Both the position numbers and the translations under genes were made by a program. The notes under the pieces are model-generated. The model was not told the DNA's origin. It did no database searches and worked only from the letters and a program-made list of their open reading frames with translations. From an uncultured candidatus Porisulfidus sp. (GTDB taxonomy: Bacteria; Pseudomonadota; Gammaproteobacteria; Poriferisulfidales; Poriferisulfidaceae), in assembly GCA_958431155.1 (NCBI GenBank), contig OY288106.1, positions 781,161-845,160 on the forward strand: 64,000 bases of DNA. Reading direction: 5' to 3'. Positions 2,915 through 47,392 of this stretch are shown piece after piece; positions within the stretch are counted from its first letter, which is position 1; every line of letters starts with the position of its first letter.

Positions 2915-3406
<492 letters not shown>

Positions 3407-3411
3407 TCAAC

Positions 3412-3792
3412 TCAACCGCCGACTTTGGGCCGCTTGGTTCCGTACTTGGAGCGACCCTGCCGGCGATCCGCCACCCCTTGGGTGTCGAGGCTGCCGCGCA
3501 CCGTGTGGTAGCGCACGCCGGGCAGGTCCTTGACGCGCCCGCCCCGGATCAGGACGACGGAATGTTCTTGGAGGTTGTGCCCTTCGCCACCGATGTAGCT
3601 GGTGACTTCGAAGCCGTTGGTCAGACGGACGCGGGCGACCTTGCGGAGTGCGGAATTAGGCTTCTTTGGAGTCGTGGTATAGACACGAGTACAGACCCCG
3701 CGTCGTTGCGGGCAACGGGCGAGCGCCGGCACGTTGCTTTTGCTCGTCGGGCGTTTGCGCGGCTTGCGCACCAACTGGTTGATTGTTGCCAT
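3412..3792 (-). CDS. rpsL: 30S ribosomal protein S12
   Basis: Decoding-centre protein of the 30S subunit. It has 126 residues. The conserved [10 protein letters not shown] loop (residues 42-51) carries lysine at 43, and the second loop [13 protein letters not shown] is intact, so both streptomycin-contact loops look wild type. It is the first gene of the str operon. The start ATG at 3792 has only a weak GATGAG Shine-Dalgarno. Upstream lie a hairpin with a U-run and then a TATAAT promoter, both described separately. The usual upstream neighbour rpoC is absent; aprA is there instead. Confidence 0.98.
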
Positions 3793-3820
3793 AGTCTCAT
3801 CAATGAATTGGCGTTCATTT

Positions 3821-3857
3821 ATAAAAACAGGCCAGCGTCCGCGGTCGGAGGCTGGCC
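3821..3857 (-). terminator. Terminator-like hairpin in the rpsL leader
   Basis: Read on the minus strand, GGCCAGC (3857-3851) pairs perfectly with GCTGGCC (3836-3830) across a 14-base loop, and is followed by TGTTTTTAT. That is the form of an intrinsic terminator. It lies after the TATAAT promoter and about 30 bases before the rpsL start, so it would be inside the str operon leader. It could be an attenuator, or a terminator for aprA readthrough. Confidence 0.6.
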
Positions 3858-3875
3858 CGCCAAATCCAGCGGCGA

Positions 3876-3884
3876 ATTATAGCA
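3876..3884 (-). promoter_or_regulatory. Extended -10 promoter for the str operon
   Basis: The minus strand shows TGCTATAAT, a perfect -10 hexamer (3881-3876) with the TGn extension, about 85 bases before the rpsL ATG. No convincing -35 is visible at 16-18 bases, which is common with extended -10 elements. A transcript would start near 3869 and include the hairpin at 3821-3857. Confidence 0.6.
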
Positions 3885-4007
3885 CAAGGGAAAACCCGAA
3901 GACCTGTTTCGGCGGCTTCACATTCCCGTCATCGGGCAGGGCGGAAGCAGCCGCTTCTTCGACCTCCCCTTCTGTTGAATGAATGCCTATTCCGGCCTGG
4001 CTGGCCG

Positions 4008-4039
4008 AAGCCCGAGCAGGGATAGATCCTGTCGGGCTT
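4008..4039 (-). terminator. Long stem-loop just after aprA
   Basis: AAGCCCGA (4008-4015) pairs with TCGGGCTT (4032-4039), and GCAGG/CCTG extend the stem inside, leaving a small loop. It lies 12 bases past the aprA stop. On the minus strand it is not followed by a U-run but by a second short GGCC hairpin. It may be an RNA-stabilising or Rho-linked 3' end rather than an intrinsic terminator. Confidence 0.5.
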
Positions 4040-4050
4040 GACTGGTATTT

Positions 4051-5895
4051 TTAGTCGATGATGTGGTGAACCGGAGCCTTCTCCATTTCCCACTCGTCGG
4101 ATTCCTGATCATAGCGGGACAGGGTGAGGCAATGCCAGTCCTGATCGTCGAGTTTCGGGAAATCGCCACGGTAGTAGTAGCCGGGCCAACGCGTTTCCTT
4201 GCGGAACAGCGTGTGGTGCGCGACTGACTGCGAGGCCAGGAACCGGTGATGAAGCTCCCATGTTCTTTGCAGTTGGTGAAGGTCTTCGGCCCCGATATTG
4301 TCGAGATCCGTCTTCAGCATGTCCAGCAACTCCAGGCCACGGGTGAGCAAGGGCTCGTTCGTCATATAGTTCGTGCTGATTCCGCCAACATATTCGTCCA
4401 TGATCTTTTCAAGACGCTGAAGACCATGGATCGGCAAGATATAACTCGGCGAGACGGTTCCCGCTACGATCTCGTTACGACCCACCGCGTAGTTTTCCAT
4501 GGGCTTGTAGATGGTCTCTTTCAGATCCTGACACTGTTTTTCGCCGACTTGAAGCTTTTCATTTTTCAGGTCGTTGATGTAATTGACCGCCGCCTTGGCT
4601 GCGATCCGACCCTCAGTGTAGGATCCCGATGAGAACTTGTGCGCACTGCCGCCAATCGTGTCGCCCGCACCGAACAGTCCGTCAACGGTCATCATTCGGT
4701 TGTAGCCCCACTGATAATCAGAAGGCGCCACATCCTCGGGGCCACTTGCCCAGGCTCCCGAGCAGGTGGCATGAGACCCCATGACGTAGGGCTCGGAAGT
4801 CGTCAGTTCCGGGTTGATATGCTTGGGATCAATGTTTTGCGCTGCCCAAACAACCGCCTGACCGATGGTCATGCCGAGAAAGTTCTCCCACCCTACGGTT
4901 TCCTTGTGCGGGTCCTGGAAGGCCTCTTTGGTCACCATGCGAATGGGCCCTCTGCCTGCCTTCACTTCTTCAAGAAAAGCGTGGTTGCGCAGACAGGTCG
5001 GGGTCGGATGGTGATCGATGTACTCTCCGACCATTTCCTTCGTGTGCTCGTACCATTTGGACTCGTACTCTTCACCATACCCGTTCTGAGTGTACGTCTT
5101 GAGGTGCAGGAAGTAGGCACCGACAGGGCCATAGCCATCCTTGAACCGGGCAAGGACAATCCGATTCTCCATCTGGGTCATCTTGGCGCCGGCGAGAATC
5201 GGCAGTGCATAGGCCGAGGCACTACTCCACGGAGCATACCAGGTGCGTCCCATGCCTTCTCCCACGGAACGGGGCTTGTAGATATGCGATGCGCCACCGG
5301 CGCAAACGATCACGGCCTTGGCCCGGAACACATAGAAATCCCCGGTACGGACATTGAAGCCGACGGCACCGGCGACTCGGTTTGGTTTCGACTCGTCCAT
5401 CAGCAGGTGAGTCACCATGATTCGGTTATAGACCTCGTTCGCGGCCTTGCGGGCGGCCTCGGCGACGATCGGCTTGTAGCTTTCGCCGTGAATCATGATC
5501 TGCCATTTGCCCTCGCGCTGGTAGCGCCCCGTTTCCGGGTCCCGCATCATGGGAAGGCCCCACTCTTCAAATTTGTGCACGGTGGCGTCAACGTGTCGAG
5601 CAATGTCGTAGCCCAGGTCCTCTCGCACCAGCCCCATGAGGTCGTTGCGCGCGTAGCGGACATGATCTTCCGGCTGATTCTCACCCCACTGCATGCCCAT
5701 GTAGCAGTTGATCGCGTAAAGGCCCTGCGCAACCGCGCCACTGCGTTCGATGTTTGCTTTTTCAACACAGACTACTTTCAGGTCTCGCCCCCAGTACCTG
5801 GACTCGTACGTGGCACCACAACCGGCCATACCGCCGCCGACGACGAGGATGTCGGAATCGACAACAACCGTCTTTCTTCGATTAAACAATCCCAT
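4051..5895 (-). CDS. aprA: Adenylylsulfate reductase, alpha subunit
   Basis: Flavoprotein subunit of dissimilatory APS reductase, which interconverts sulfite plus AMP and APS in the cytoplasm. The FAD-binding motif GGGMAGCG is at residues 20-27. The 614-residue length and stretches such as NCYMGMQWGENQPEDHVRYA, GGASHIYKPRS and GPVGAYFLHLKTYTQNGYG fit AprA. The start ATG at 5895 follows a good AAGGAG. aprB is 11 bases upstream. The company of aprM, and the absence of dissimilatory sulfite reductase genes nearby, fits the sulfur-oxidising (reverse) direction, but direction is inferred from lineage-level knowledge, not from this sequence. Confidence 0.96.
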   Translation of the reverse strand: MGLFNRRKTVVVDSDILVVGGGMAGCGATYESRYWGRDLKVVCVEKANIERSGAVAQGLYAINCYMGMQWGENQPEDHVRYARNDLMGLVREDLGYDIARHVDATVHKFEEWGLPMMRDPETGRYQREGKWQIMIHGESYKPIVAEAARKAANEVYNRIMVTHLLMDESKPNRVAGAVGFNVRTGDFYVFRAKAVIVCAGGASHIYKPRSVGEGMGRTWYAPWSSASAYALPILAGAKMTQMENRIVLARFKDGYGPVGAYFLHLKTYTQNGYGEEYESKWYEHTKEMVGEYIDHHPTPTCLRNHAFLEEVKAGRGPIRMVTKEAFQDPHKETVGWENFLGMTIGQAVVWAAQNIDPKHINPELTTSEPYVMGSHATCSGAWASGPEDVAPSDYQWGYNRMMTVDGLFGAGDTIGGSAHKFSSGSYTEGRIAAKAAVNYINDLKNEKLQVGEKQCQDLKETIYKPMENYAVGRNEIVAGTVSPSYILPIHGLQRLEKIMDEYVGGISTNYMTNEPLLTRGLELLDMLKTDLDNIGAEDLHQLQRTWELHHRFLASQSVAHHTLFRKETRWPGYYYRGDFPKLDDQDWHCLTLSRYDQESDEWEMEKAPVHHIID

Positions 5896-30364: not shown

Positions 30365-31249
30365 CTACTCAGCGATAAGTCCCGCTCTACGTGCTTTATT
30401 AACAAGATATGCAGCAAAGGAAGCACACGCACCAAACATGAAAGCAGCATCTTCTACATCTACATTCGCCTCTTCCTCATCAAGGAGAGAGTGGCGAATA
30501 CCATTTTCATCACTGCTATAGCCATAGAGTTCTTCAATCCCTTTTTTAAAAGCCCCATGCAGAACAACATCCTTTTCAGATAGTGCTCTCAAGGCTGGAG
30601 CTAAAGAACTTTTAGCATCCTGGCTAAGATTCCGTGCAACAGATTCCACAGCATGGATGCTTTCGCGAACACTCCCCGCATAATCACTAGCATGGATGCA
30701 TTTGGCCGATTCACGAAGATGTGTCCGAGCCCCATCGAATGGCCCAGATGCTAGCACCTCGAATGATTGCTCAATAGATTCCCTTTGTTCTGGTATCGCT
30801 ATCGGAATGATTGAAGGGCCATCATTTATTACCATATATGCGCATTTACGACTTCTCAATATAGATTGAACTGTACTGTGAAAATCAGTTGACACGTTAT
30901 CGTGCCGAAGAACAAATTGTAGAAAATCGAAAATTCGATTGTACGGCTCTCTTTTAAAAAATTGCTTTAACTCACTAGCTTGGTGCTCAAATTTATTGTT
31001 AAATTCATCCGCAGGATTGCACAAAAAATTGACATGGAAGTCATGTAGAATTGCTCCCCAAGAACCCACTATGTAATCATAGTAACCATGGTGCTCTCTT
31101 GCAGCCCGCAATCTTTCGTAGACATCACTCCAGAGAAGATTCCGCACATCTACGGGCAATTCTTCCAACGCTAGAGGGCGAGGAAGTTGGTCAATTCCTT
31201 CTGCCTGTGAAAAGGTTAGTTCACTTCGAACGGGATTCGATTCAACCAT
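30365..31249 (-). CDS. AbiJ-like (HEPN-related) protein
   Basis: Possible abortive-infection or RNase-type protein. From the ATG at 31249, preceded by AAAGGAAGG, it has 294 residues; a longer reading to 31327 is not supported. The C-terminal part holds the pattern seen at the end of many AbiJ-related proteins: KKGIEELYGYSSDENGIRHS, LLDEEEANVDVEDAAFMFGA, then CASFAAYL. The IRHSL piece supplies the Arg-x-His feature of HEPN folds. The N-terminal part is not recognised. The gene is A+T-rich and sits at the edge of the accessory stretch. The assignment is by pattern memory, so moderate. Confidence 0.6.
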   Translation of the reverse strand: MVESNPVRSELTFSQAEGIDQLPRPLALEELPVDVRNLLWSDVYERLRAAREHHGYYDYIVGSWGAILHDFHVNFLCNPADEFNNKFEHQASELKQFFKREPYNRIFDFLQFVLRHDNVSTDFHSTVQSILRSRKCAYMVINDGPSIIPIAIPEQRESIEQSFEVLASGPFDGARTHLRESAKCIHASDYAGSVRESIHAVESVARNLSQDAKSSLAPALRALSEKDVVLHGAFKKGIEELYGYSSDENGIRHSLLDEEEANVDVEDAAFMFGACASFAAYLVNKARRAGLIAE

Positions 31250-31314
31250 GGAGCCTTCCTTTGAAAAATTCTGTGACGGAGGGGGGGTAATCCTATCACA
31301 TATAGCGTTTTGAC

Positions 31315-31446
31315 TTATAAATTCCACTTTATCTTGCGGACTAGCTTCTGAGCCTCTTGCTAAAGAGCCACGTAATGCTGCTGCCGCGTCGCTTCAAATG
31401 TCTCACTCATTCCATCTGGAGCAATGACAGGGAAAACTAGCCTTAC
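31315..31446 (-). pseudogene. C-terminal gene remnant with an internal stop
   Basis: One minus-strand frame reads VRLVFPVIAPDGMSETFEAT, RQQHYVAL, an in-frame TAG (31362-31360), then QEAQKLVRKIKWNL and TAA at 31317-31315. The sequence looks like a genuine protein C-terminus broken by a nonsense change, with its 5' part missing (a TAG lies just upstream at 31449-31447). The family is not recognised. It lies just upstream of the AbiJ-like gene. Confidence 0.4.
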
Positions 31447-31538: not shown

Positions 31539-32501
31539 ATGGACACAAAGCGCCAAATCATAGTCTCGGGAGCAAATGACGCATACATGGATTTTTTGGA
31601 TGACATGCTTGCATCCATACAGGACCGTTTGCGTGAATACGATTTAGGAATCCTTGATTTGGGTCTCTCTGAAGAATCGAAAGATCGGATCCGAGTTCAT
31701 AAAAAGGATACCAAGATCGTTGACCCCGGCTGGCGTCACCAGCCTAGGGACATGTCCAAGCAACCTCTTCACAAAAAGGTATTTCTGGCAAAACCCTTCC
31801 TCCCCGAAATTTTCCCTGATCACTCTGGCTATATGTGGATAGATGCCGACATTTGGCTCCTGGACTCTTCCGCCATAGAACACTACATGTCAGCATCAGA
31901 ACAATCTCGGGACGGAGGATCTATCACTTATGAATGTCATCCTTACTATAAAGACGTGAAGTATAAGCCTCGATTTAGGGTGGTAAAAAAATTCGGAATT
32001 TTCCCTGTGGCTATACGTGCGGTCAGCAGGACCGTGTATCGTTTGACGCATGAGATGTTTGGAGATGAAATCGCCAGACGATGGGCGCGTTCTCCAACCA
32101 TTAACAGTGGTTTTTTCTTTATACGAGCTAACTCTCCGGCATGGAGTGCCTGGCAACACTACACACGCAAAGCAAATTTCAAAGCCTTAATGAAGCGAAA
32201 TTATTTCTCTGACCAAACGTGTCTCAATGTCGCTTTGCGGGAAAATAATTTTTCTTTTAATACCTTGCCAGCAACCTATAATTGGGTGGTTGGATTGGGG
32301 CTCCCCCTTTTTGACGAAGAAACGGGCCTGTTACTCGACCCATGCGGGCCTCATGACAGGTTATATGCCATTCATCTGACCAACAAGATCGGCTCTCAAA
32401 TTTTCAAACTCCGGACGACTAACGGCGGCCACATTAGTACATCACTAAAAAGACCTGCCTTCCTTCAAACGCTTTCCGACAAACAGCCAGAATTTTCCTA
32501 A
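31539..32501 (+). CDS. Putative nucleotide-sugar glycosyltransferase
   Basis: 320 residues with a GT-A-type DxD motif at 102-104 in WIDADIWLLDSS, preceded by KVFLAKPFLPEIFPDHSGYM. Later come SPTINSGFFFIRANSPAW and DQTCLNVAL, the pattern seen in GT8-like and related families where the acceptor loop follows. No signal peptide or membrane helix, so a cytoplasmic enzyme is likely. It opens the glycan-type cluster, facing away from the AbiJ-like gene. Donor and acceptor are unknown. A+T-rich relative to the core. Confidence 0.65.
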   Translation: MDTKRQIIVSGANDAYMDFLDDMLASIQDRLREYDLGILDLGLSEESKDRIRVHKKDTKIVDPGWRHQPRDMSKQPLHKKVFLAKPFLPEIFPDHSGYMWIDADIWLLDSSAIEHYMSASEQSRDGGSITYECHPYYKDVKYKPRFRVVKKFGIFPVAIRAVSRTVYRLTHEMFGDEIARRWARSPTINSGFFFIRANSPAWSAWQHYTRKANFKALMKRNYFSDQTCLNVALRENNFSFNTLPATYNWVVGLGLPLFDEETGLLLDPCGPHDRLYAIHLTNKIGSQIFKLRTTNGGHISTSLKRPAFLQTLSDKQPEFS

Positions 32502-32538: not shown

Positions 32539-33390
32539 CTAGTTGTCCATCCAATCAATTTTTTTCCGAATAGAGAGATTGTATTTCCACGCCTCCTCCA
32601 ATACGCTTAGAGAAATACCCATATCTTTTGCTTCGGCAAGCAGAGCATTGGCATCTTTTGGATAGCATTTCCCTCCCCAACCGCGATCTCCATCCGGCCC
32701 GGGGATCTGATAGTGCGAATTACCGAGGCGTTCATCCAAGTGTAATGCCTCCATCAGTTGTAACCACTCCACCGTACTGCCTGATTTCTCCCACAACTCG
32801 TAGAACTGATTCAAAACGCTTACTTTTGTCGCCAAAAATGTGTTGTTCATGTATTTGACCAGTGACGCCCCGGCTGCATCGCAGAATTTGACCGAGCACG
32901 GCGTACAGATACTGAATTTCTCGAACAACTCCTGTACTGCTTTTGTGTCATCCTCCTTGCCACCCAAAATCCTGAATTTGGGGTTCAGGTAATCCTCAAG
33001 CGCCGTATTCTGCTTGAGAAACTCCGGGCAGACAACGAGTCGCAAGTGCGGCCATTCTTTCTGATATTCGACAATACGGGATGGTAGCGTGGTACTCGTC
33101 AGAACGACTGTCTTGGAGATGTTACTTGCCTGTCTTCCCAGCGCCTCCATGCAGTGATCCACGATCGTTCCGTCGAAAGGCCCGCCGTATGTGCCAGGCT
33201 CAATTTTCTGTGGAGTCGGAACACAGACAAAAATAAATTCGGATTTCTTCCAGACCTTATCAAGCGACCCCTCGAATTCTTCCGAATTCTTTGGATACGC
33301 CGGATCAAATATGTGGAGTTGAGCGCGATCCTTAAAGGCGGCATAAACGGATTTGCCTACAACGCCGTAGCCAATAATGCCTATGTCCAT
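32539..33390 (-). CDS. Short UDP-glucose/GDP-mannose dehydrogenase family protein
   Basis: NAD-dependent nucleotide-sugar dehydrogenase homologue. The Rossmann start GYGVVG is at residues 7-12, the catalytic-type Cys242 lies in GWGGKCYPKD, and the central helix region with YMNNTFLATKVSVLN is present. At 283 residues it stops soon after the Cys motif, so the C-terminal UDP-binding domain of the usual 390-450-residue enzyme is missing. No frameshift is visible after the stop. It may act on another substrate or need a partner chain. It lies opposite to its neighbours, between a glycosyltransferase and a methyltransferase. Confidence 0.8.
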   Translation of the reverse strand: MDIGIIGYGVVGKSVYAAFKDRAQLHIFDPAYPKNSEEFEGSLDKVWKKSEFIFVCVPTPQKIEPGTYGGPFDGTIVDHCMEALGRQASNISKTVVLTSTTLPSRIVEYQKEWPHLRLVVCPEFLKQNTALEDYLNPKFRILGGKEDDTKAVQELFEKFSICTPCSVKFCDAAGASLVKYMNNTFLATKVSVLNQFYELWEKSGSTVEWLQLMEALHLDERLGNSHYQIPGPDGDRGWGGKCYPKDANALLAEAKDMGISLSVLEEAWKYNLSIRKKIDWMDN

Positions 33391-33581: not shown

Positions 33582-33608
33582 AGCCTGCAAAAGCCTAGAT
33601 TGAAATTC

Positions 33609-34472
33609 ATGCTTTCCCTGTTTCTCTCCCCGGAAGACCGGGCTGCTCTCCGTGCGCAACGCGGATACAGTTCCCCTTTCTCGCTACCCACCAAGTCACC
33701 CGAAGCAACCAACCGGGTGATGCTTAAACTGGTTCTCGAATGCCTGGAAGACAAGCCTTTACATATCCTTGACCTAGGCTGCGGTTCCGGCGCCTTGCTG
33801 CAGTGCATCGCAGATCATTACCGCGCACAAGGTTGGGACCCGCAGCAATACCTTCTTGGGATTGATTCGGACGAAGAGTTCTTTCAAGCGGAAATCCCTT
33901 TCCAAGTAGGAGACTTGACGAAGCCTCTAAATCAGCAGACCCGAGCTTTTGACCTGATTATTGCCATACAGGTGCTGGAACATGTCCGTTCTCCATATCT
34001 ATTAATGGAAGAAGCGTATGCGGCTCTAACCCCCAAGGGCAAATTCTTGTTTTCAGTGCCCAACATGATGACGATGAATAGTCGGCTCCGTTTTCTGTTT
34101 ACTGGTCGATTCCAGCTATACCCAGGCCCCAGCAGCGATCCTGCGGATTCTGCATCAGGCCATGGGCACATCAATCCCCTGCCAATACAGTATTGGGATT
34201 ATGGCTTGCGTCATGTCGGTTTCACCGATATCCGTTACCAAACCGACCGTATCAGGCGAGGGTCACTAATCCTTGCCATGTTGTTCTCCCCGCTTCTTTG
34301 GCTGGGAACGCTCCAACTGCATAGAAGGGAACGTCGTTCAAATGAACGAATTTACCAGCAGAACCTTCGCCCATTCCGTGAAATTAACACGATTCGGAAT
34401 CTTGCTGGCCGCGGCTTAGTGGCGATATGCAGTAAACCAGATCAGACGGATTCGCCAGATCCTGCTTCTTGA
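33609..34472 (+). CDS. Class I SAM-dependent methyltransferase
   Basis: 287 residues from the ATG at 33609 (a TTG three codons upstream is also open). The SAM-binding motif I ILDLGCGSG is at 53-61, motif II-like GIDSDEEFF follows, and motif IV AIQVLEHVRSPYLLMEEAYA with LTPKGKFLFSVPN is typical of the methyltransferase-11/23 type. The later hydrophobic stretch LILAMLFSPLLWLGTL may touch the membrane. By context it may methylate a sugar, lipid-linked glycan or O-antigen part. The substrate is not readable. Confidence 0.82.
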   Translation: MLSLFLSPEDRAALRAQRGYSSPFSLPTKSPEATNRVMLKLVLECLEDKPLHILDLGCGSGALLQCIADHYRAQGWDPQQYLLGIDSDEEFFQAEIPFQVGDLTKPLNQQTRAFDLIIAIQVLEHVRSPYLLMEEAYAALTPKGKFLFSVPNMMTMNSRLRFLFTGRFQLYPGPSSDPADSASGHGHINPLPIQYWDYGLRHVGFTDIRYQTDRIRRGSLILAMLFSPLLWLGTLQLHRRERRSNERIYQQNLRPFREINTIRNLAGRGLVAICSKPDQTDSPDPAS

Positions 34473-34510: not shown

Positions 34511-34981
34511 ATGGTTGTTGTGCGAGGTCGTGTAATAAAAGGTAAGGGAGGTTATGGCAAAAACCCCCATCGCCCTGAAGTGGCGGCTTACTTTAAAAAT
34601 ACTCCAGTCAAGGGAACTCTTAACGTTGCACTTGACCAGCCTGTACGGCTACGACATGCGCAAACACCTGACTTTATGTTCTGGCCTTCATACATTGACA
34701 GAATCCCTTGCCTTATCACGCGCACCTCACACACGCCTTTGCACATCGTTGAAGTAATCTCCGACGAACAATTGCCATGTACACGCGGCGATTACGTAAC
34801 ACTAGTGATACCCCGTGGACACACTCTTGATTTGCCGTCCATTCACCGCACAATATGGAAGATCTTTTATGGCTTTGGGAGAACACACTGGTACGAATAC
34901 AAAATTTACCGAAGGTTGTTGGGCCCGTTTTATTTTGTCAGGCGCCTATCCATACAAGACCCTGAGCGGCAAGCACATTAG
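34511..34981 (+). CDS. Stand-alone DUF120/CTP-riboflavin-kinase-like domain protein
   Basis: 156 residues that parallel the N-terminus of the convergent neighbour. Its features resemble archaeal CTP-dependent riboflavin kinase (DUF120): VRGRVIKGKGG at 4-14, PVKGTLNVAL at 32-41 (archaeal pattern G-T-L-N), and HIVEVISDEQLPCTRGDYV at 78-96. A helical tail RTIWKIFYGF...KIYRRLLGPFYFVRRLSI is shared with the neighbour. No membrane helix is certain. A role in handling a CTP- or CMP-linked compound for glycan synthesis is inference. Fold identity needs a profile search. Confidence 0.55.
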   Translation: MVVVRGRVIKGKGGYGKNPHRPEVAAYFKNTPVKGTLNVALDQPVRLRHAQTPDFMFWPSYIDRIPCLITRTSHTPLHIVEVISDEQLPCTRGDYVTLVIPRGHTLDLPSIHRTIWKIFYGFGRTHWYEYKIYRRLLGPFYFVRRLSIQDPERQAH

Positions 34982-34998
34982 CAAAAAAGCAAGCCCTT

Positions 34999-36594
34999 TC
35001 AGTCTAAAACCAGCCCATGGTCCTGGTAGACCCTTATATGCTCTTTCGCTACCAACTCCGGACTGTACTCTTTCGCCCTCTCTACCCCCCTCTCCGACAA
35101 GCGTCGCCTTAATTCCTCCAACCGATACAGACGAAGTAATTGTTCTGCCAGTGCCCCCGCGTCTCCAGGCGGGACCAAGATCCCGCACTCTTCGGTGATG
35201 ACTTCCGGAATCCCATCCACCCGACTCGCCACGATGGGCACACCCGCGCGCAACACATCCAGAAGCGTGGATCCTAGCGGCTCAACCAGAGAAGGAAACG
35301 CGAAAAGATCAAAAGCGGCAATCCACGTGATGGGGTCTTCAACCCAACCTGCAAAAGTCACATTGGTCAAACCTTCGGCCTGCTGGCGAAATTCTTCTTC
35401 CAGGCGACCACTTCCCAGCAAAACAATTTGAATGTCCGGCGCATCCTGCTGCAGGGTTCGCGCCGCCTGAAGCAATATGGAATGTCCTTTCTCTGGACCA
35501 TCCATCGCGGCGGCATGCCCGACGATGAATTTGTCTGAAAATTTCTCCTTGATCTTCCGCACCCCATCCGGATCAGGGTATTCCGGGTTCCAGGCATCAG
35601 GAATGCGAACAATTGCAATCTCTGGAAAACGATCCCGGAGGCTCTTTTCCACCGCCTCCGTCAACGCAACTACAGTCTGTGCATTTCGGTATGCGGCGGA
35701 ACTGTAAGAATTGGAGCGCACAGATTTTGTCAGCCGGCGCGTAATCAGGTATTGCTTGCCAAACAACAGACTGGCGGCATACGCTGCCTGCACCGCATGC
35801 GCCTCATGTGCGTGCAGCAAGGATGCTCCTCGACAAGCGAATGTCGCCGACAGCCGGTTTCTCACCCGGCAAACCTCCAAATCTGGACGGCTATGAAAGC
35901 GCTGAGCCAAGGGACCGTGCCGCAGCACGACGACACGCTGCCTAGATATGCCCTCGGCTGCAAGTGCCTCGACAAGGATCTCAGTCTGTCGCTCGCCTCC
36001 GCGTAACTTCGGGTTGCGGGCCAAGTTGATATGGCACACCAAAATATCGCTCTGGAGTTTCTTTCGGTTCCACAATTTGGCATGGTACTGGGGAGATTGC
36101 GTTGCAAGTCGGCGAATCAGCCAGAAAGGTCCAATTAACGTCCGGTAGATTTTTGATACATACCAACACTCCCGGAAGCGCCAAAAAACATTCCAGATTG
36201 CTTTGGTACTCCATGACAAGTTTTTAACTAGAATGTCCTGCGACACTTTCAGTTCAAGCCAATCTCCATCATGCAATTGGAATCTGTCACGCAACTTGCA
36301 TGGAGCGATGATTTCAATGATATGCAATGGATGGCCCTTTGCACGCGTAATCAAACAACGCATTCCATCAATTTCACCAGCCCAGAAAAAGGAGCGTTTC
36401 CCTCCTTTCAGCTCAACCTGTTCCGGATCAAATCGGACTGGCTTGCCCAATGCCAAATTCAGTGATCCGCGAACTGGGGGTTCTCCGAAAAAATCTATGA
36501 CTTCGGCGCTGAAGCCTTTGATCTTTGAAGCAGTGCCACGCCCACTGATCACGCGGCCACGCAGAGTCACAGAATCTGATATCTGCTCAGACAT
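34999..36594 (-). CDS. DUF120-like domain fused to a GT4 glycosyltransferase
   Basis: 531 residues. Residues 9-117 resemble the CTP-dependent riboflavin kinase fold: LRGRVISGRGT, PPVRGSLNLALGKPV (39-53) and HIIEIIAPCKLRDRFQLHDG (91-110). A helical linker (about 128-170) follows. From about 183 on there is a GT-B glycosyltransferase of family 4: LRGGERQTEIL, LLHAHEAHAVQAAY, MDGPEKGHSILLQAA, and the donor site FPSLVEPLGSTLLDVLRAG with nucleotide-contact Glu. The fusion is odd: GT4 enzymes normally lack such a domain. It may bind or phosphorylate a cofactor-like acceptor. It is convergent with its stand-alone paralogue. Confidence 0.7.
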   Translation of the reverse strand: MSEQISDSVTLRGRVISGRGTASKIKGFSAEVIDFFGEPPVRGSLNLALGKPVRFDPEQVELKGGKRSFFWAGEIDGMRCLITRAKGHPLHIIEIIAPCKLRDRFQLHDGDWLELKVSQDILVKNLSWSTKAIWNVFWRFRECWYVSKIYRTLIGPFWLIRRLATQSPQYHAKLWNRKKLQSDILVCHINLARNPKLRGGERQTEILVEALAAEGISRQRVVVLRHGPLAQRFHSRPDLEVCRVRNRLSATFACRGASLLHAHEAHAVQAAYAASLLFGKQYLITRRLTKSVRSNSYSSAAYRNAQTVVALTEAVEKSLRDRFPEIAIVRIPDAWNPEYPDPDGVRKIKEKFSDKFIVGHAAAMDGPEKGHSILLQAARTLQQDAPDIQIVLLGSGRLEEEFRQQAEGLTNVTFAGWVEDPITWIAAFDLFAFPSLVEPLGSTLLDVLRAGVPIVASRVDGIPEVITEECGILVPPGDAGALAEQLLRLYRLEELRRRLSERGVERAKEYSPELVAKEHIRVYQDHGLVLD

Positions 36595-36778: not shown

Positions 36779-37198
36779 ATGGAGTTCCTAAAACCCCGCA
36801 CCCTCAAGGCTCGCCAGAAAACCCTTGCCCTGCTCCTGCCCTGCCTTACACCTGTCCAAGATGATCTTGGGAACGTCCCGGTCTCGATGCAACAGGATTC
36901 CCACGTCAACGGTACCTTTATCGGCCTGACCGAACGTGTCTGTGCCTATTTCAAAGTCACTCGACCTATACTCATTCAACGCGTGATTGCTTCCGTGTTC
37001 GAGGAAATCTACCGTCGCGAGGCAACTGCCGTCCTGACGCAGTGCGACGAACTTCTGGAAGACCCCCAGTCCGAACTATCCCGTGCCCGTGCCAATATCG
37101 GCGAACTGCAACCGGAGACCCCAGGCCCGAACTGGGTGAGCAACCTGAACGACTACATCCAGAACAACTACGAACGCCCCAACATCTTGGTACTCTAA
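36779..37198 (+). CDS. Hypothetical protein, unrecognised
   Basis: 139 residues, soluble, mainly helical in appearance, with no motif I recognise. Features: a basic N-terminus (KPRTLKARQKTLALLLPCLT), a possible helix VIASVFEEIYRREATAVLTQ, and an acidic middle. It starts 11 bases... precisely, its stop is 11 bases before the next ORF, so the two are probably cotranscribed. Base composition is closer to the core than the preceding glycan cluster. The gap before it (36595-36778) shows nothing convincing. Confidence 0.6.
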   Translation: MEFLKPRTLKARQKTLALLLPCLTPVQDDLGNVPVSMQQDSHVNGTFIGLTERVCAYFKVTRPILIQRVIASVFEEIYRREATAVLTQCDELLEDPQSELSRARANIGELQPETPGPNWVSNLNDYIQNNYERPNILVL

Positions 37199-37209
37199 AC
37201 CTCTGATTC

Positions 37210-38343
37210 ATGGACATTGCTCTTCACCGCTCAGCCTCCGACATTGAGGAAGATCTGGAGTATTACTTCAGCGAACAGCGTGACAAACACAACCAGATCC
37301 GCCCCTCGGACAACATCCGGAGTTTCACCGCGGATTCTCCCAATTTCATGCAAGACCCTGGCAAGGATGAGACCGGCAATGTGTTCTACCCATTCGCTCC
37401 GTTCTCACTGAACCGAATCTTCATCGGAATCAGTTTCCCTTTGTTCTCCAACAATTGGGGCGCGGCGTTCCTGCGCCATCTGTTGAGCCTGATAAAACCC
37501 AAGGGTGCCGTCATCCTCCCGGTCTACCCGGAAGTCCAGGCGCGCGACCAAGGCCTGTGGTGCCGCAGTTCCCTGGAAAACATCTTCCGCAGCCGTTCAC
37601 GCTACATCGGCATCAGCAACATCTGGGCGGAAAACGACGGCGTCATGTCAATGCGGGTCGGCCGACGCTGGCCACCCGTTATTCCGAGCACGGCCCGGTG
37701 GCTCTTTGAGCAAACTCCGCGCTGCGCGACTGCCTTGGGACTCGAAGGAAGCACCGAAGTAGTCAAAAGGTTTTGGCAGTCCGAGATTCAGCGCTTCTGG
37801 CGTCTCGGTCGACATCACGCCGTGATTGAACAAATCATCCGCAATCAATATGGCCCACGCCGTTCGGTGCGCTTCGCGGCATCCGGCGCGGATGCAGGCA
37901 TTCTTGCGCTCGAATGCCTCTACAGTCCTTACACCCGCGTCATCCATGCCGATGCCCGTGGTTCCGATGAATCTCCTGATGTCCTGCAAGCCCTGGATCA
38001 AGCCTGCTCAACTAAGGAGCACGGCCCGCTGGAATGCCCCGATTCGACTGATACCGAAAACTTCTGCGATGTGCTGTGCGTCACCAATCCGGATGCCTTC
38101 GATCCAGACTCGGTTCCACGTCAGCTTTCCGCAGGTGGAACACTCATCCTGACACCCGAATGCGTTGAATTGGGCCCGGAATTCGGCTCAGAATTTAGTG
38201 AACCGGAATACTATTCAGACACGGTCGCGCAACGCCTCCATCGCAGCGTTCCGATCTACCACTACTCCGAGCGGATCGAGGAAGAAATTGACCAGCAGAC
38301 TGAATCGCGCCAAGGTGCTTTCACGGTTTTACGCAAGGCCTAG
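37210..38343 (+). CDS. Hypothetical protein with two Rossmann-like halves
   Basis: 377 residues, family not recognised. Two segments look like the late strands of methyltransferase-type Rossmann folds: FLRHLLSLIKPKGAVILPVY (about 87-106) and, in the second half, FAASGADAGILALECLYS...RVIHADARG with CDVLCVTNPDAFDPDSVPRQ and LSAGGTLILTPE. No classical DxGxGxG motif is intact, so catalysis is uncertain. No signal peptide. It likely forms an operon with the 139-residue gene upstream. It overlaps the end of a small convergent gene by 4 bases. Confidence 0.6.
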   Translation: MDIALHRSASDIEEDLEYYFSEQRDKHNQIRPSDNIRSFTADSPNFMQDPGKDETGNVFYPFAPFSLNRIFIGISFPLFSNNWGAAFLRHLLSLIKPKGAVILPVYPEVQARDQGLWCRSSLENIFRSRSRYIGISNIWAENDGVMSMRVGRRWPPVIPSTARWLFEQTPRCATALGLEGSTEVVKRFWQSEIQRFWRLGRHHAVIEQIIRNQYGPRRSVRFAASGADAGILALECLYSPYTRVIHADARGSDESPDVLQALDQACSTKEHGPLECPDSTDTENFCDVLCVTNPDAFDPDSVPRQLSAGGTLILTPECVELGPEFGSEFSEPEYYSDTVAQRLHRSVPIYHYSERIEEEIDQQTESRQGAFTVLRKA

Positions 38344-42851: not shown

Positions 42852-43973
42852 ATGTCCTTTGATTTACCAAAACGCGGACTGGTCTTTTGGCCAGTCGGAA
42901 ACGGTGACAGCACAACCATCGTCGTGGACTCTGAGATCTGCTTGCAGGTGGACTTAAACCACTTAGAGAAGTCTGAGGAGAATGACGATGCTAGTTGGGC
43001 CATTATTGATGAACTCGCAGACCGGCTTCCTAGCGTAGACGGACGCCCGTATCTAGCCGCTTTCGCCCTGACGCACCCTGATCAGGATCACTGTCGGGGT
43101 TTTGCTGAACTACTCGATAGGGTAGATATTGGTGAACTGTGGTTTACACCGAGAGTCTTTCTCGAATACAACGAGGATCTCTGCGACGATGCAGAAGAAT
43201 TCAAGAAGGAAGCAGAACGCCGAGTCAAGGAGACGATCAAAGCCGGGGGAGACCCCGGGACAGGCAATCGCGTCCGCGTCTTCGGTTACTCGGAACTGTT
43301 GGAAGAGGATGACTTTGAGGATTTCCCCGAAGATCGACTGACCGTGCCAGGGAATGAAATCACCTTAATTGACGAGGAAGACGTATCCGGCGAGTTCCGC
43401 GCCTTTATTCATGCGCCATTCAAGGACGATGACGCTGGCGACCGTAATGACACAAGCCTCGGCATGCAGGTTACGCTTTACGATGGAGACCAAGAGCTCT
43501 GTGCTTTGCTCTTTGGCGACCTTTCTTATCCAATCCTCCAGCGTATCTTCGAGCATACCGAGGAGGCGGATGATCTGGCCTGGAATGTGCTTCTCGCTCC
43601 GCACCACTGCTCGAAGGCTGCAATGTACTGGAAGGACGAGAATGACGATGAGGAAAAACTCAAGAAGCACATCGTAGAGGAAATGGATGAAGCGTCACTG
43701 GAACCGAATCGCGTGGTATCAAGTTCCAACTCGGTACCATCATCCAACAAATCTGGAGACAATCCACCGCATGCCAAAGCGAAGACGCAATACGAGAAAA
43801 TCACCGATTCTTTTCTTTGTACGATGGATCAGGATGAGCCGGTTGTGGCTGAACTTGACGACGAAAAAATTGTATTCACTAGAACTGCGGCTGCCACTTT
43901 GTCTGCAACACAAGCCGCGGACGTTGCACAGGGCTCAAGCGAACCTCCTGCCGATGCACATACTTACGGTTGA
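42852..43973 (+). CDS. ComEC-type metallo-beta-lactamase fold protein
   Basis: 373 residues, first gene of the island, with GGAGG 8-10 bases before the ATG. GNGDSTTIV (16-24) and THPDQDH (74-80) match the MBL domains found in ComEC/Rec2-like proteins, and later GDLSYPIL and LLAPHHCSK supply the further metal ligands. Substrates may be nucleic acid or nucleotides. Acidic inserts are frequent. After the MBL core a Ser/Ala/Pro-rich flexible tail of some 60-70 residues ends in glycine (DAHTYG). No signal peptide. The next gene starts 5 bases after its stop, so the two are coupled. Confidence 0.82.
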   Translation: MSFDLPKRGLVFWPVGNGDSTTIVVDSEICLQVDLNHLEKSEENDDASWAIIDELADRLPSVDGRPYLAAFALTHPDQDHCRGFAELLDRVDIGELWFTPRVFLEYNEDLCDDAEEFKKEAERRVKETIKAGGDPGTGNRVRVFGYSELLEEDDFEDFPEDRLTVPGNEITLIDEEDVSGEFRAFIHAPFKDDDAGDRNDTSLGMQVTLYDGDQELCALLFGDLSYPILQRIFEHTEEADDLAWNVLLAPHHCSKAAMYWKDENDDEEKLKKHIVEEMDEASLEPNRVVSSSNSVPSSNKSGDNPPHAKAKTQYEKITDSFLCTMDQDEPVVAELDDEKIVFTRTAAATLSATQAADVAQGSSEPPADAHTYG

Positions 43974-43978
43974 GGCTG

Positions 43979-46900
43979 ATGATCGACGCTTTCGAACTCG
44001 CTAGGGAGCAGATCAGAGAACTCGCGGATGCGTCAGACGGAACTGTTGTAATAGATGACGAAATAATTCAGTCAAATGGTTACCTTCGCTTCGACATAAG
44101 TATCCGCTTCAACGGCTTGGAACGAGTGGAGAACGGGCTCCGTATTCGGGCTCGTGAATCATTTTTTATCTTTGTTCCACCGACTTTTCCATTCCAGGCC
44201 CCCTCGGTCTATACGCAGCACACTCGCTTTTCTGGCTTTCGTCATGTCCAATGGCGAAAAAGCCTTTGTCTATACGGAAGTTCGATGGATTGGCAATCTG
44301 AAGATGGCATGTATGGGTTTATCAGGCGACTCGACTCCTGGATACGTGATGCCGCACTCAATAACCTAGACCCAGACGACGCACCTCTCCATCCACCAGT
44401 CGCATACCCCACAGTCGATCGCATGATTGTGCCTCGGGCGGATACGCCTGTAGTTGGTAGTTCGCCGTGGTTTGGATTTGCCGAACTCCGAGACCGTAAT
44501 CATCGCACCGAGATCATCAGCTGGAAAAAACATGGCCAAGAACATTCAAATTATTTTGCCCCCGCCATTCTCCTGCATAAGGAACTCCCTTTCGAATACC
44601 CTGAGACTGTCGAAGCTTTATTGAAGGAACTTGAATCTCATAGCATCAACTACGCCCCGTTCATTTTCGGGCTCTCCTCATACGCGCAACTCAGTAGCGC
44701 AGGGACACCACTTACGGTCATTCTCGGGGCTCCTATGCGCCGTATAGTCCCAGGCGGCCGTATTCTTCAGCATCTCGCCGCATGGGAAATTTCTGCTGAC
44801 GACGCAGACAAACTACGTGCACTAAACGCTTCCGCACAAATCAGTAATGCAGACCAACGGGAGGCTGCGATAAAAGAAGTCGTTGAATGGAGTATCTCAG
44901 CCAAGGTTGGGTGGTGCACTGTCCGCGAGATGCGCCCCGAGGTCACAAAGAGACGCGATCATACGTCCCCCATGGCTTGGTTTTGTGGCAAGAGTGTGGC
45001 CATTTGGGGGTGTGGTGCTGTAGGAAGCCACGTGGCAGAATCTGTCGTGCGGGCTGGCGCGAAAACAATTGAACTTGTTGACAGCAAGGCTGTTACCCCT
45101 GGACTTCTTGTGCGACAAGATTTCGAAGATGCCGATATAGGAAAAAACAAAGCTAATGCGCTTAAGGATCGGCTCAAACGAATCGAGCCCGAACTTGAGG
45201 TTACTGCTTTAACTGACGACCTTGTTTTTCGCATTACAAATTCAGACGCTATTTCAGAAGTGGATTTGATAATCGACTGTACAGCTTCACTAGCCGTCCG
45301 AACGGCCCTCGAACATGCGCTCCGGGATATCAATTCACGACCCGCGATTGCCTCCATGGCCATCAATAGCCAAGCGACAACGGCTATCGCTACGCTTTCG
45401 AATTCAAACCATAGCGGTGGACCTCTGGATCTTATCCGGCGACTGAAACTGGAAGCATGTCGAGAGCCAGGGCTCTCGAAGATGCTTGAGGCGTTCTGGC
45501 CAAACACCGTTCCAAGCGAACGCTTTCAGCCAGAACCAGGCTGCTCAGAGCCAACGTTTGTTGGATCCAACGCAGATCTTGCTGGTCTCTCCGCACGAAT
45601 GATTAATTCTATCGCTCGCGCCATTGCAACACCCAGCAGCCATCACTCGGGCGCAGGCTGGCTGTTCGAAGAATTGGAGCCGGTTTATGCTTTCACATGG
45701 CCCCAGGACTACGTACTTCAGGACGAAGAGCAAGGCTGCTCTATCAGAATGTGTCCACATGCCGCGCGAGAAATGCGTGGATGGGCCAGACGTTCTGCAC
45801 GTACGGCTGGAAAAAAGATTGAAACTGGTGGCTTAGTCTTCGGCGAGTTGAACGAGGCTGCGGGTGTTCTCTGGGTAACAGAAGTGGAAGGTCCTCCGCC
45901 AGACAGCCATGCGACCGAGGATCAATTCACCTGCGGGACCGAGGGCATGGAGGAGGCTGACAAAGAGCAGCGTGTTAGATTCCGTAAATCTGTTGTTTGC
46001 GTTGGCAGTTGGCATACTCATCCTACGTCAGCACCGCATCCAAGTGACGTTGACATTAACGCGGTTGCTCAACTTCTTGGTGATCCTGGCTCTACTCGGA
46101 AAACCTGCCTTATCCTTATCCTCTCGGGGAACCCCGATAACCCAACCCTTGGCGCGCATGTTTTTCGAACAAGATCGCGTGAAGAGAATCACCTTCGCAT
46201 CCAGCAGGATGCCAGAGCGACAATGCGCCTTGAGCCACAGCCCCAAAAAACACAAAATATTGGACTGGCCCTATCCGGCGGGGGTTCTCGTGCTATCGCA
46301 TTCCATCTCGGGTGCCTACGAGCCCTGTCTGATCTTGATCTTCTCAACCGTATACAAGTAATCTCAAGCGTTTCAGGAGGATCAATCATTTCAGCAATGT
46401 ACGCATACTCCAGTGAATCATTCCAAGAGTTTGACGCGCGTGTGGTGCAACTTCTACGTCGAGGGCTCCACCGTGACATATCCCTCCAGATGTTGAAACC
46501 AAGCTCAATCTGGGAAATTCTGAAAGTTCGCGCCATCGCAAACACGTGCCTTCTTATACGCATGCTCTATCACTTGATTGATGCTGTAGTGCGGTCGGAT
46601 TTGGCCGGTCGCCTTGGTCCTCCTCCAATGCGTACATTCAGTCGCACAGAGGCATTCCGTAATGTCATTGCGAAATCCCTATTTGGCGACACCCTTGTTC
46701 GCGATATTGCACGAGATTCGCTTCATACAATTATCAATGCCACTGAGCTGAAAACTGGCTCAGCATTTCGGTTTGGAAGCAGGGAAAGTGGCTGCTGGAG
46801 ATTCGGAACAATTGCTCCTGAAGATGCATTGCTTGCCGATGCTGTGGCTGCCTCTGCAGCTTACCCGGTCTGGCTCCCAGCACTTGACCGCAAGTATCGC

Positions 46901-47392
46901 TTCGCAAAAAATGGGCATTCTGGAGAATCGAAGCGTGTTGTGCTCACTGATGGCGGGATCTTCGAAAATCTCGGCGTAAGTCCAATGGAGCCCGGTAGGA
47001 CACCTTCAGTTAGCACTAACGTTTTCGACCCCGACTACATCATCTGCTGCGATGCGGGTGCTGGTCTATTTGATGATGACAGCCATCCAACACGCTGGCC
47101 CACTCGAATGTACAGATCATTCCTCACGGTCTTTCGAAAGGTGCAAGATGCCTCGCGGAAACGGCTACACTCTCTCGCTGATGACGAAAAGATATCAGGC
47201 TTCGCGCTATGCTACCTTGGGCAACAGGACAGGGCCTTGCCCCGGATTCCAGCGGGGCTCCCTAAACGGGATGAGGTCAAGGACTACCCAACCGATTTTG
47301 CCGCCATGTCAGCAGAAGATATAGACTGTCTAACACTTCGCGGGGAACTTCTGACAAGATTTCTCATTTCCTACTACCTTCCAGATCTATGA
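43979..47392 (+). CDS. E2-E1-JAB-patatin fusion protein
   Basis: Single 1137-residue chain with four enzyme modules (numbering from the ATG at 43979; a TTG at 43970 is also open). Residues 1-135 look like an E2 conjugating domain, with FIFVPPTFPFQAPSV and a candidate catalytic Cys97 in RKSLCLYG. About 150-310 is a linker domain. About 332-550 is a ThiF/E1 adenylation domain: GCGAVGSHVAE (345-355), LVDSKAV, DCTAS, and a candidate thioester Cys522 in GCSEPTF. About 600-740 is a JAMM peptidase: Glu623, His679, His681, Ser689, Asp692 (HTHPTSAPHPSDVD). From 761 a patatin-like phospholipase: GGGSRAIAFHLG, Ser799 in SSVSGGS, Asp991 in TDGG. All key residues are present. Confidence 0.85.
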   Translation: MIDAFELAREQIRELADASDGTVVIDDEIIQSNGYLRFDISIRFNGLERVENGLRIRARESFFIFVPPTFPFQAPSVYTQHTRFSGFRHVQWRKSLCLYGSSMDWQSEDGMYGFIRRLDSWIRDAALNNLDPDDAPLHPPVAYPTVDRMIVPRADTPVVGSSPWFGFAELRDRNHRTEIISWKKHGQEHSNYFAPAILLHKELPFEYPETVEALLKELESHSINYAPFIFGLSSYAQLSSAGTPLTVILGAPMRRIVPGGRILQHLAAWEISADDADKLRALNASAQISNADQREAAIKEVVEWSISAKVGWCTVREMRPEVTKRRDHTSPMAWFCGKSVAIWGCGAVGSHVAESVVRAGAKTIELVDSKAVTPGLLVRQDFEDADIGKNKANALKDRLKRIEPELEVTALTDDLVFRITNSDAISEVDLIIDCTASLAVRTALEHALRDINSRPAIASMAINSQATTAIATLSNSNHSGGPLDLIRRLKLEACREPGLSKMLEAFWPNTVPSERFQPEPGCSEPTFVGSNADLAGLSARMINSIARAIATPSSHHSGAGWLFEELEPVYAFTWPQDYVLQDEEQGCSIRMCPHAAREMRGWARRSARTAGKKIETGGLVFGELNEAAGVLWVTEVEGPPPDSHATEDQFTCGTEGMEEADKEQRVRFRKSVVCVGSWHTHPTSAPHPSDVDINAVAQLLGDPGSTRKTCLILILSGNPDNPTLGAHVFRTRSREENHLRIQQDARATMRLEPQPQKTQNIGLALSGGGSRAIAFHLGCLRALSDLDLLNRIQVISSVSGGSIISAMYAYSSESFQEFDARVVQLLRRGLHRDISLQMLKPSSIWEILKVRAIANTCLLIRMLYHLIDAVVRSDLAGRLGPPPMRTFSRTEAFRNVIAKSLFGDTLVRDIARDSLHTIINATELKTGSAFRFGSRESGCWRFGTIAPEDALLADAVAASAAYPVWLPALDRKYRFAKNGHSGESKRVVLTDGGIFENLGVSPMEPGRTPSVSTNVFDPDYIICCDAGAGLFDDDSHPTRWPTRMYRSFLTVFRKVQDASRKRLHSLADDEKISGFALCYLGQQDRALPRIPAGLPKRDEVKDYPTDFAAMSAEDIDCLTLRGELLTRFLISYYLPDL

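Follow-up and report, generated by a model that had tools for sequence, protein, structure and literature searches.

The window, a 64,000-nucleotide stretch of a 1.59 Mb genome carried on one contig, encodes a GT4 glycosyltransferase joined in frame to a domain homologous to the archaeal riboflavin kinase RibK. We found this fusion in one genus, that of a sponge sulfur-oxidiser, where it lies among LPS/O-glycan genes. RibK is known from archaea, where it phosphorylates one vitamin at the expense of CTP. If a bacterial RibK branch equipped with a glycosyltransferase holds, the fold would have been re-used for envelope chemistry, and the assembly of surface glycans in a sponge symbiont would seem to include a CTP-dependent step.

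A RibK-like domain shared by two convergent genes

Both open reading frames were confirmed; they are convergent, with 17 bp between their stop codons (Table 1). The 156-aa protein and the N-terminal 170 aa of the 531-aa protein are 38% identical over 169 aa (BLASTP, E 1e-31). Coordinates, BLASTP and Pfam agree with the first-pass annotation, which had described two convergent genes with a common domain, one of them joined to a GT4, and all the motifs it quoted were found: RGRVI(K/S)G(K/R)G, (K/R)G(T/S)LN(V/L)AL, HI(V/I)E(V/I)I, KIYR..(L/I)GPF and RRL. Around the gene pair, no terminator or promoter signal exceeded that of shuffled sequence.

Table 1. Features of the gene pair and of two neighbouring genes, with positions in the window.
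Feature	Position	Strand	Basis
Fusion protein, 531 aa: RibK-like domain, helical tail and GT4 glycosyltransferase	34999..36594	-	single ORF, Pfam
RibK-like (DUF120) core, fusion residues 9-119	36238..36570	-	profile against PDB, structure alignment
G-R-G-T-A-S, fusion residues 18-23, counterpart of Mj RibK GLGEGR	36526..36543	-	alignment
S-L-N, fusion residues 44-46, counterpart of Mj T39-L-N41	36457..36465	-	alignment
C-K-L-R, fusion residues 99-102, counterpart of Mj MKLR 108-111	36289..36300	-	alignment
Basic aromatic helical tail, fusion residues 124-183	36046..36225	-	composition, predicted model
GT4 glycosyltransferase region, fusion residues 186-531, motif EPLGSTLLD	35002..36039	-	Pfam, solved GT4 sequences
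Stand-alone paralogue, 156 aa: RibK-like domain and tail, without KLR	34511..34981	+	38% identity to fusion N-terminus
SAM methyltransferase	33600..34472	+	PF13489, E 2.7e-16
GT8-like / nucleotide-diphospho-sugar transferase-like protein	31539..32501	+	PF03407 and PF01501, weak, below cut-off

The shared domain is a homologue of the archaeal CTP-dependent riboflavin kinase RibK, because a profile search, Foldseek and VIA-align all point to this family. A nine-sequence profile matched exactly three distinct sequences in the PDB (2oyn, 3cta and 2p3m; E 6-8e-9), all of them RibK (Mj0056, T. acidophilum RbkR). The AlphaFold2 model of the domain, built from four close sequences, has a mean pLDDT of 66, reaching 74-87 where the barrel core is best modelled and staying below 50 from residue 145 onwards, in the tail. 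Foldseek returned RibK at ranks 1-8 with this model, and VIA-align matched it to 2vbs with a Z of 11.0 over 114 aa (model residues 6-120); RibK entries as a whole reached Z 6.2-11.0 and the best non-RibK entry 5.2. The model thus has the cradle-loop barrel of RibK, while that of the full-length fusion (mean pLDDT 45.7) was too poor for use. The RibK/DUF120 fold and ancestry proposed earlier are in this way borne out by Pfam, the PDB profile search and the model comparison, and no other domain gave a better match.

By the curated Pfam cut-off, the large protein is a member of the DUF120 superfamily (PF01982, CTP-dep_RFKase; 29.0 bits, cut-off 25); the small protein alone scores 18.3 bits, under the cut-off. 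Since the equivalog models for CTP-dependent riboflavin kinase were missed (NF040694, 31.7 bits against 168; PRK14165, 26.1 against 279), we assign the domain to the superfamily from its sequence and consider that it should not be named CTP-dependent riboflavin kinase (EC 2.7.1.161).

The remainder of the large protein matched PF13692 (Glyco_trans_1_4; 105.6 bits, E 3e-30) as well as PF00534 (Glycos_transf_1), and its nearest solved sequences are PimA (E 8e-16) and other GT4 enzymes, RfaG among the matches at E 6e-4. It has the GT-B C-terminal nucleotide-sugar domain and the E-x7-E motif of GT4; in the window protein, as in each of five orthologues inspected, this motif takes the conservative form E-x7-D.

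Distribution, phylogeny and selective constraint

Uninterrupted orthologues of the fusion, 55-85% identical, are present in all six genomes of the genus and in none of 14 other genomes of the order. The domain profile detected no genome beyond the genus in the class sample (n = 369) and one further genome, G503, in the phylum sample (n = 398), where PF01982 itself recovered the same two as the profile and no others. Within the class of G503, probably Alphaproteobacteria as judged from its genes, 7 of 385 genomes were positive. Among these, G503 and G1149 carry the helical tail, and G1010, G1098, G1186 and G1123 have short, more orthodox DUF120 proteins. This deep sampling covered genomes of one phylum, and a scan of 84,980 species, run with short patterns obtained by back-translation, reaches close relatives only. 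The closest named records, at 84% domain identity, are from 'Candidatus Porisulfidus sp. TsSOB' (sponge) and a gammaproteobacterial MAG. The earlier remark that no common GT4 has such a domain is consistent with these surveys: the genomes sampled held no DUF120-GT4 fusion beyond the genus, and a literature search, with most subscription papers outside its scope, found no paper on a DUF120-GT fusion. Phages, viral contigs and plasmids yielded no relative save a haloarchaeal sequence that matched the G1149 protein weakly, and carriage by any of them was dropped for lack of a clear relative in those sets.

In the tree, a branch supported at 94/93 sets the long forms with the tail apart from the short ones, some branches being long. 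The two window proteins, one partial copy and the two alphaproteobacterial-looking singletons group, on these sequences, in a putative clade distinct from orthodox RibK; its hallmarks are R..PLH in the acceptor half and the extra basic aromatic helical tail. The bacterial branch of the fold that had been suggested is thus recovered. G503 and G1149 are each the sole carrier within their genus or order sample and both have tyrosine-integrase genes near the relative, which together suggest horizontal transfer. The G503 relative adjoins an uppP-like gene (recognised by sequence reading). In G1149, a 398-aa protein with no match in Pfam, NCBIfam or PDB starts 4 bp downstream in an operon-like arrangement, and an AT3-SGNH acyltransferase is encoded some 3 kb beyond it. 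The 398-aa protein is one of two Pfam-less proteins downstream of the RibK-like gene in this genome (L043:6913-9573); the other, of 479 aa, contains a stretch that looks nucleotidyltransferase-like by eye (LDILIADED).

The small gene is more restricted, being present in two of the six genus genomes and missing from the other four. The second carrier, G019, another species of the genus, repeats the convergent pair (L010; fusion 3293-4885 +, small gene 4905-5375 -), and its small gene product is 82% identical to that of the window. A third copy is found at the end of a contig in G016 (L012, C83); two TAA codons interrupt its reading frame, and it is apparently a pseudogene. This copy, in a sponge sulfur-oxidiser bin, adjoins a methanopterin C1 cluster (L012:2686-6608) with methenyl-H4MPT cyclohydrolase, RimK-like ATP-grasp and CitG-like genes.

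The small gene, the RibK-like part and the GT4 part all look to be maintained by purifying selection. The dN/dS ratio is about 0.15 for the small gene pair (NG86, 0.155), 0.12-0.19 (NG86) or 0.16-0.36 (YN00) for the RibK-like part, and 0.09-0.15 (NG86) for the GT4 part. In two of four comparisons the RibK-like domain outpaces the GT4, with dN of 0.27 against 0.08 (G017) and 0.11 against 0.06 (G019). Such faster evolution, the patchy distribution and the in-frame stops of the G016 copy would be expected if the domain were left over from a horizontally acquired gene and now decaying or neutral, with the GT4 as the sole working part. We consider this improbable, given that the domain is uninterrupted in six fusions, that its NG86 ratios are low and that its motifs are invariant across orthologues only 55% identical.

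Glycan-gene neighbourhood, motif retention and possible function

In all six genomes the fusion lies near LPS/O-glycan genes, in line with the glycan-synthesis setting first proposed. Its neighbours encode GT2, GT9, GT8-like and UDP-sugar dehydrogenase-like proteins, FkbM and other methyltransferases, with GT2 and GT9 found in the other genomes. No fixed substrate is indicated, because different glycan genes accompany the fusion in each genome. CDP-glucose genes occur in G017, where a glucose-1-phosphate cytidylyltransferase adjoins the fusion; this was above cut-off in one of the six genomes, so the tie to CDP-sugars is not general, and a general CDP-hexose link was dropped. The CMP/CTP-linked intermediate that the first-pass annotation thought the domain might make or bind stays a conjecture on this evidence. 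In the window, the methyltransferase gene is 38 bp upstream of the small gene on the same strand, and the two are possibly co-transcribed. The small gene of G019 comes last, behind GT8-like, GT9, methyltransferase and FkbM genes, and the same glycan region encodes the orthologue (L010:8204-9142) of the GT8-like protein of the window.

Several other genes of the region deserve mention. A nucleotide-sugar dehydrogenase-like protein of 283 aa (32539-33390 -) has the NAD-binding and central domains, and a C-terminal UDP-binding domain was not found in it; this short form is conserved, since a 284-aa relative in G015 (L015:13053-13907) is 72% identical. Two adjacent Pfam-less genes (36779-38343 +; 139 and 377 aa) are 81-88% conserved beside the fusion in G015 and G017. 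An AbiJ_NTD4 protein of the PADLOC candidate family PDC-S32 (30365-31327 -; E 3e-59) is encoded beside the glycan region. Further along (42852-47392 +) is a gene for a 1140-aa protein that combines prokaryotic E2 (PF14457), ThiF/E1, JAB and patatin phospholipase domains, preceded by a 373-aa protein that is metallo-beta-lactamase-fold-like by reading; this locus is probably a ubiquitin-like anti-phage defence system with a built-in phospholipase effector. A defence role for the RibK-GT4 fusion itself was rejected, as it had no PADLOC match.

For Mj RibK, we take residues 10-15 and 108-111 to bind CDP, 39 and 41 to bind Mg, and 95 and 103 to bind FMN (UniProt/HAMAP MF_01285). Aligned with it, the fusions keep the G-x-G of the nucleotide loop, with the third Gly replaced by Ala and the Arg of Mj GxGxGR changed. 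They retain the L.DG ending, and S-L-N, K/R-L-R and the acidic E (Mj E103) are found in all six. From this motif retention, CTP binding by the fused domain is likely. In the acceptor half of the long clade, R..PLH (PMH in G1149) replaces Mj 93-100, and the changes include T95 to K or S and E100 to H. The Thr95 counterpart is lost in all bacterial members, the short orthodox-looking ones included, and E103 is kept in all; loss of Thr95 alone is therefore no sign of a changed substrate. The tail of the long clade, missing from orthodox RibK, has a charge of +5 to +11 and 17-23% aromatic residues, and is helical in the predicted model at low confidence. The small paralogue keeps GTLN and the acidic E, with the KLR segment deleted; as it thus lacks some of the CDP site, the two genes may differ in function.

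The homology to RibK and the conserved Mg, CDP and E103 positions could mean that the domain is still a kinase of riboflavin or a related flavin, its fusion to the GT4 being incidental or making a flavin-linked glycan. This appears very unlikely to us: the acceptor-side residues differ, the RibK equivalog is missed by far, the neighbours are glycan genes and a canonical RibF is present in all six genus genomes. As this ordinary RibF is kept throughout, FMN supply is independent of the fusion, and a role as a missing riboflavin kinase was rejected.

Instead, we tentatively favour a RibK-derived CTP/Mg-binding module that has been redirected to a substrate of the envelope glycan and linked to the GT4, acting as a phosphotransferase. 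On this view the RibK fold has a bacterial lineage of its own, which would have altered its acceptor pocket and gained the basic aromatic tail, which may hold the protein at the membrane face. The fused copy would still bind Mg and a cytidine nucleotide, and would phosphorylate a non-flavin envelope-glycan substrate, either what the GT4 accepts or produces or else a sugar of the core or on a polyprenyl carrier; a single polypeptide would thus carry out both glycosylation and phosphorylation. Lacking KLR, the small paralogue could be its partner or its regulator, with little or no catalytic activity of its own.

Loss of the GxGxGR Arg of Mj RibK in the fusions argues against phosphate transfer, and a module that binds a nucleotide without catalysis is almost as probable as transfer to a glycan or lipid-linked substrate. 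Such a module might be a CTP, CDP or CMP sensor, or a docking device, that regulates or places the GT4, for example by tying LPS extension to the supply of CTP or CMP-Kdo, with the small paralogue competing or dimerising. We regard this as a serious possibility, though short of probable. An incomplete GxGxGR and a tail suited to membrane placement are consistent with it, and purifying selection on the small paralogue suggests that the domain is useful without the full site; yet the S-L-N, K/R-L-R and acidic E of all six fusions exceed what docking needs, and there is no fixed tie to CDP-sugar genes. Returning to the phosphotransferase reading, we are more doubtful that these proteins represent a second CTP-dependent kinase lineage on the RibK fold, this one bacterial, with a glycan or lipid-linked sugar as its substrate instead of a flavin, and that the fusion is a glycosyltransferase and kinase in one, serving to build outer-membrane glycan.

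Comparison with known RibK and GT4 proteins

The fused domain and archaeal RibK (Mj0056; PDB 2vbs, 2vbu, 2vbv, 2oyn, 2p3m) have a common fold over about residues 5-121 (Z 11), as well as the G-x-G loop, (T/S)LN, KLR, the acidic E and the L.DGD ending. The fusion differs from RibK in the changed third Gly and Arg of GxGxGR and the changed Thr95, in the acceptor-side PLH, in a shorter mid-region, in the tail of ~60 aa and the GT4 that follow, and in belonging to a genome that already has RibF. The RbkR protein of Thermoplasma acidophilum (3cta, 5trd; profile E 7e-9) is also a RibK domain joined to another. However, RbkR carries an N-terminal DNA-binding wHTH, whereas the window fusion has a C-terminal glycosyltransferase and no HTH.

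The short bacterial DUF120 proteins (L046:9790-10206, L044:9660-10076) score 95 and 103 bits against PF01982 and keep GxG, G-T-(L/V)-N and (L/V)R, but they are 138 aa long, lack the tail and fall on the opposite side of the 94/93 branch from the long forms. Their context includes a radical SAM-like protein and an enolase-superfamily-like gene; among the alphaproteobacterial-looking genomes that encode them (L046, L044, L039), the radical SAM-like gene lies nearby in G1010 and G1186. Finally, PimA, WaaG/RfaG and other GT4 enzymes resemble the C-terminal half of the fusion (PF13692/PF00534), from which they differ in that the fusion has Asp as the second acidic residue and a RibK-like domain at its N-terminus.
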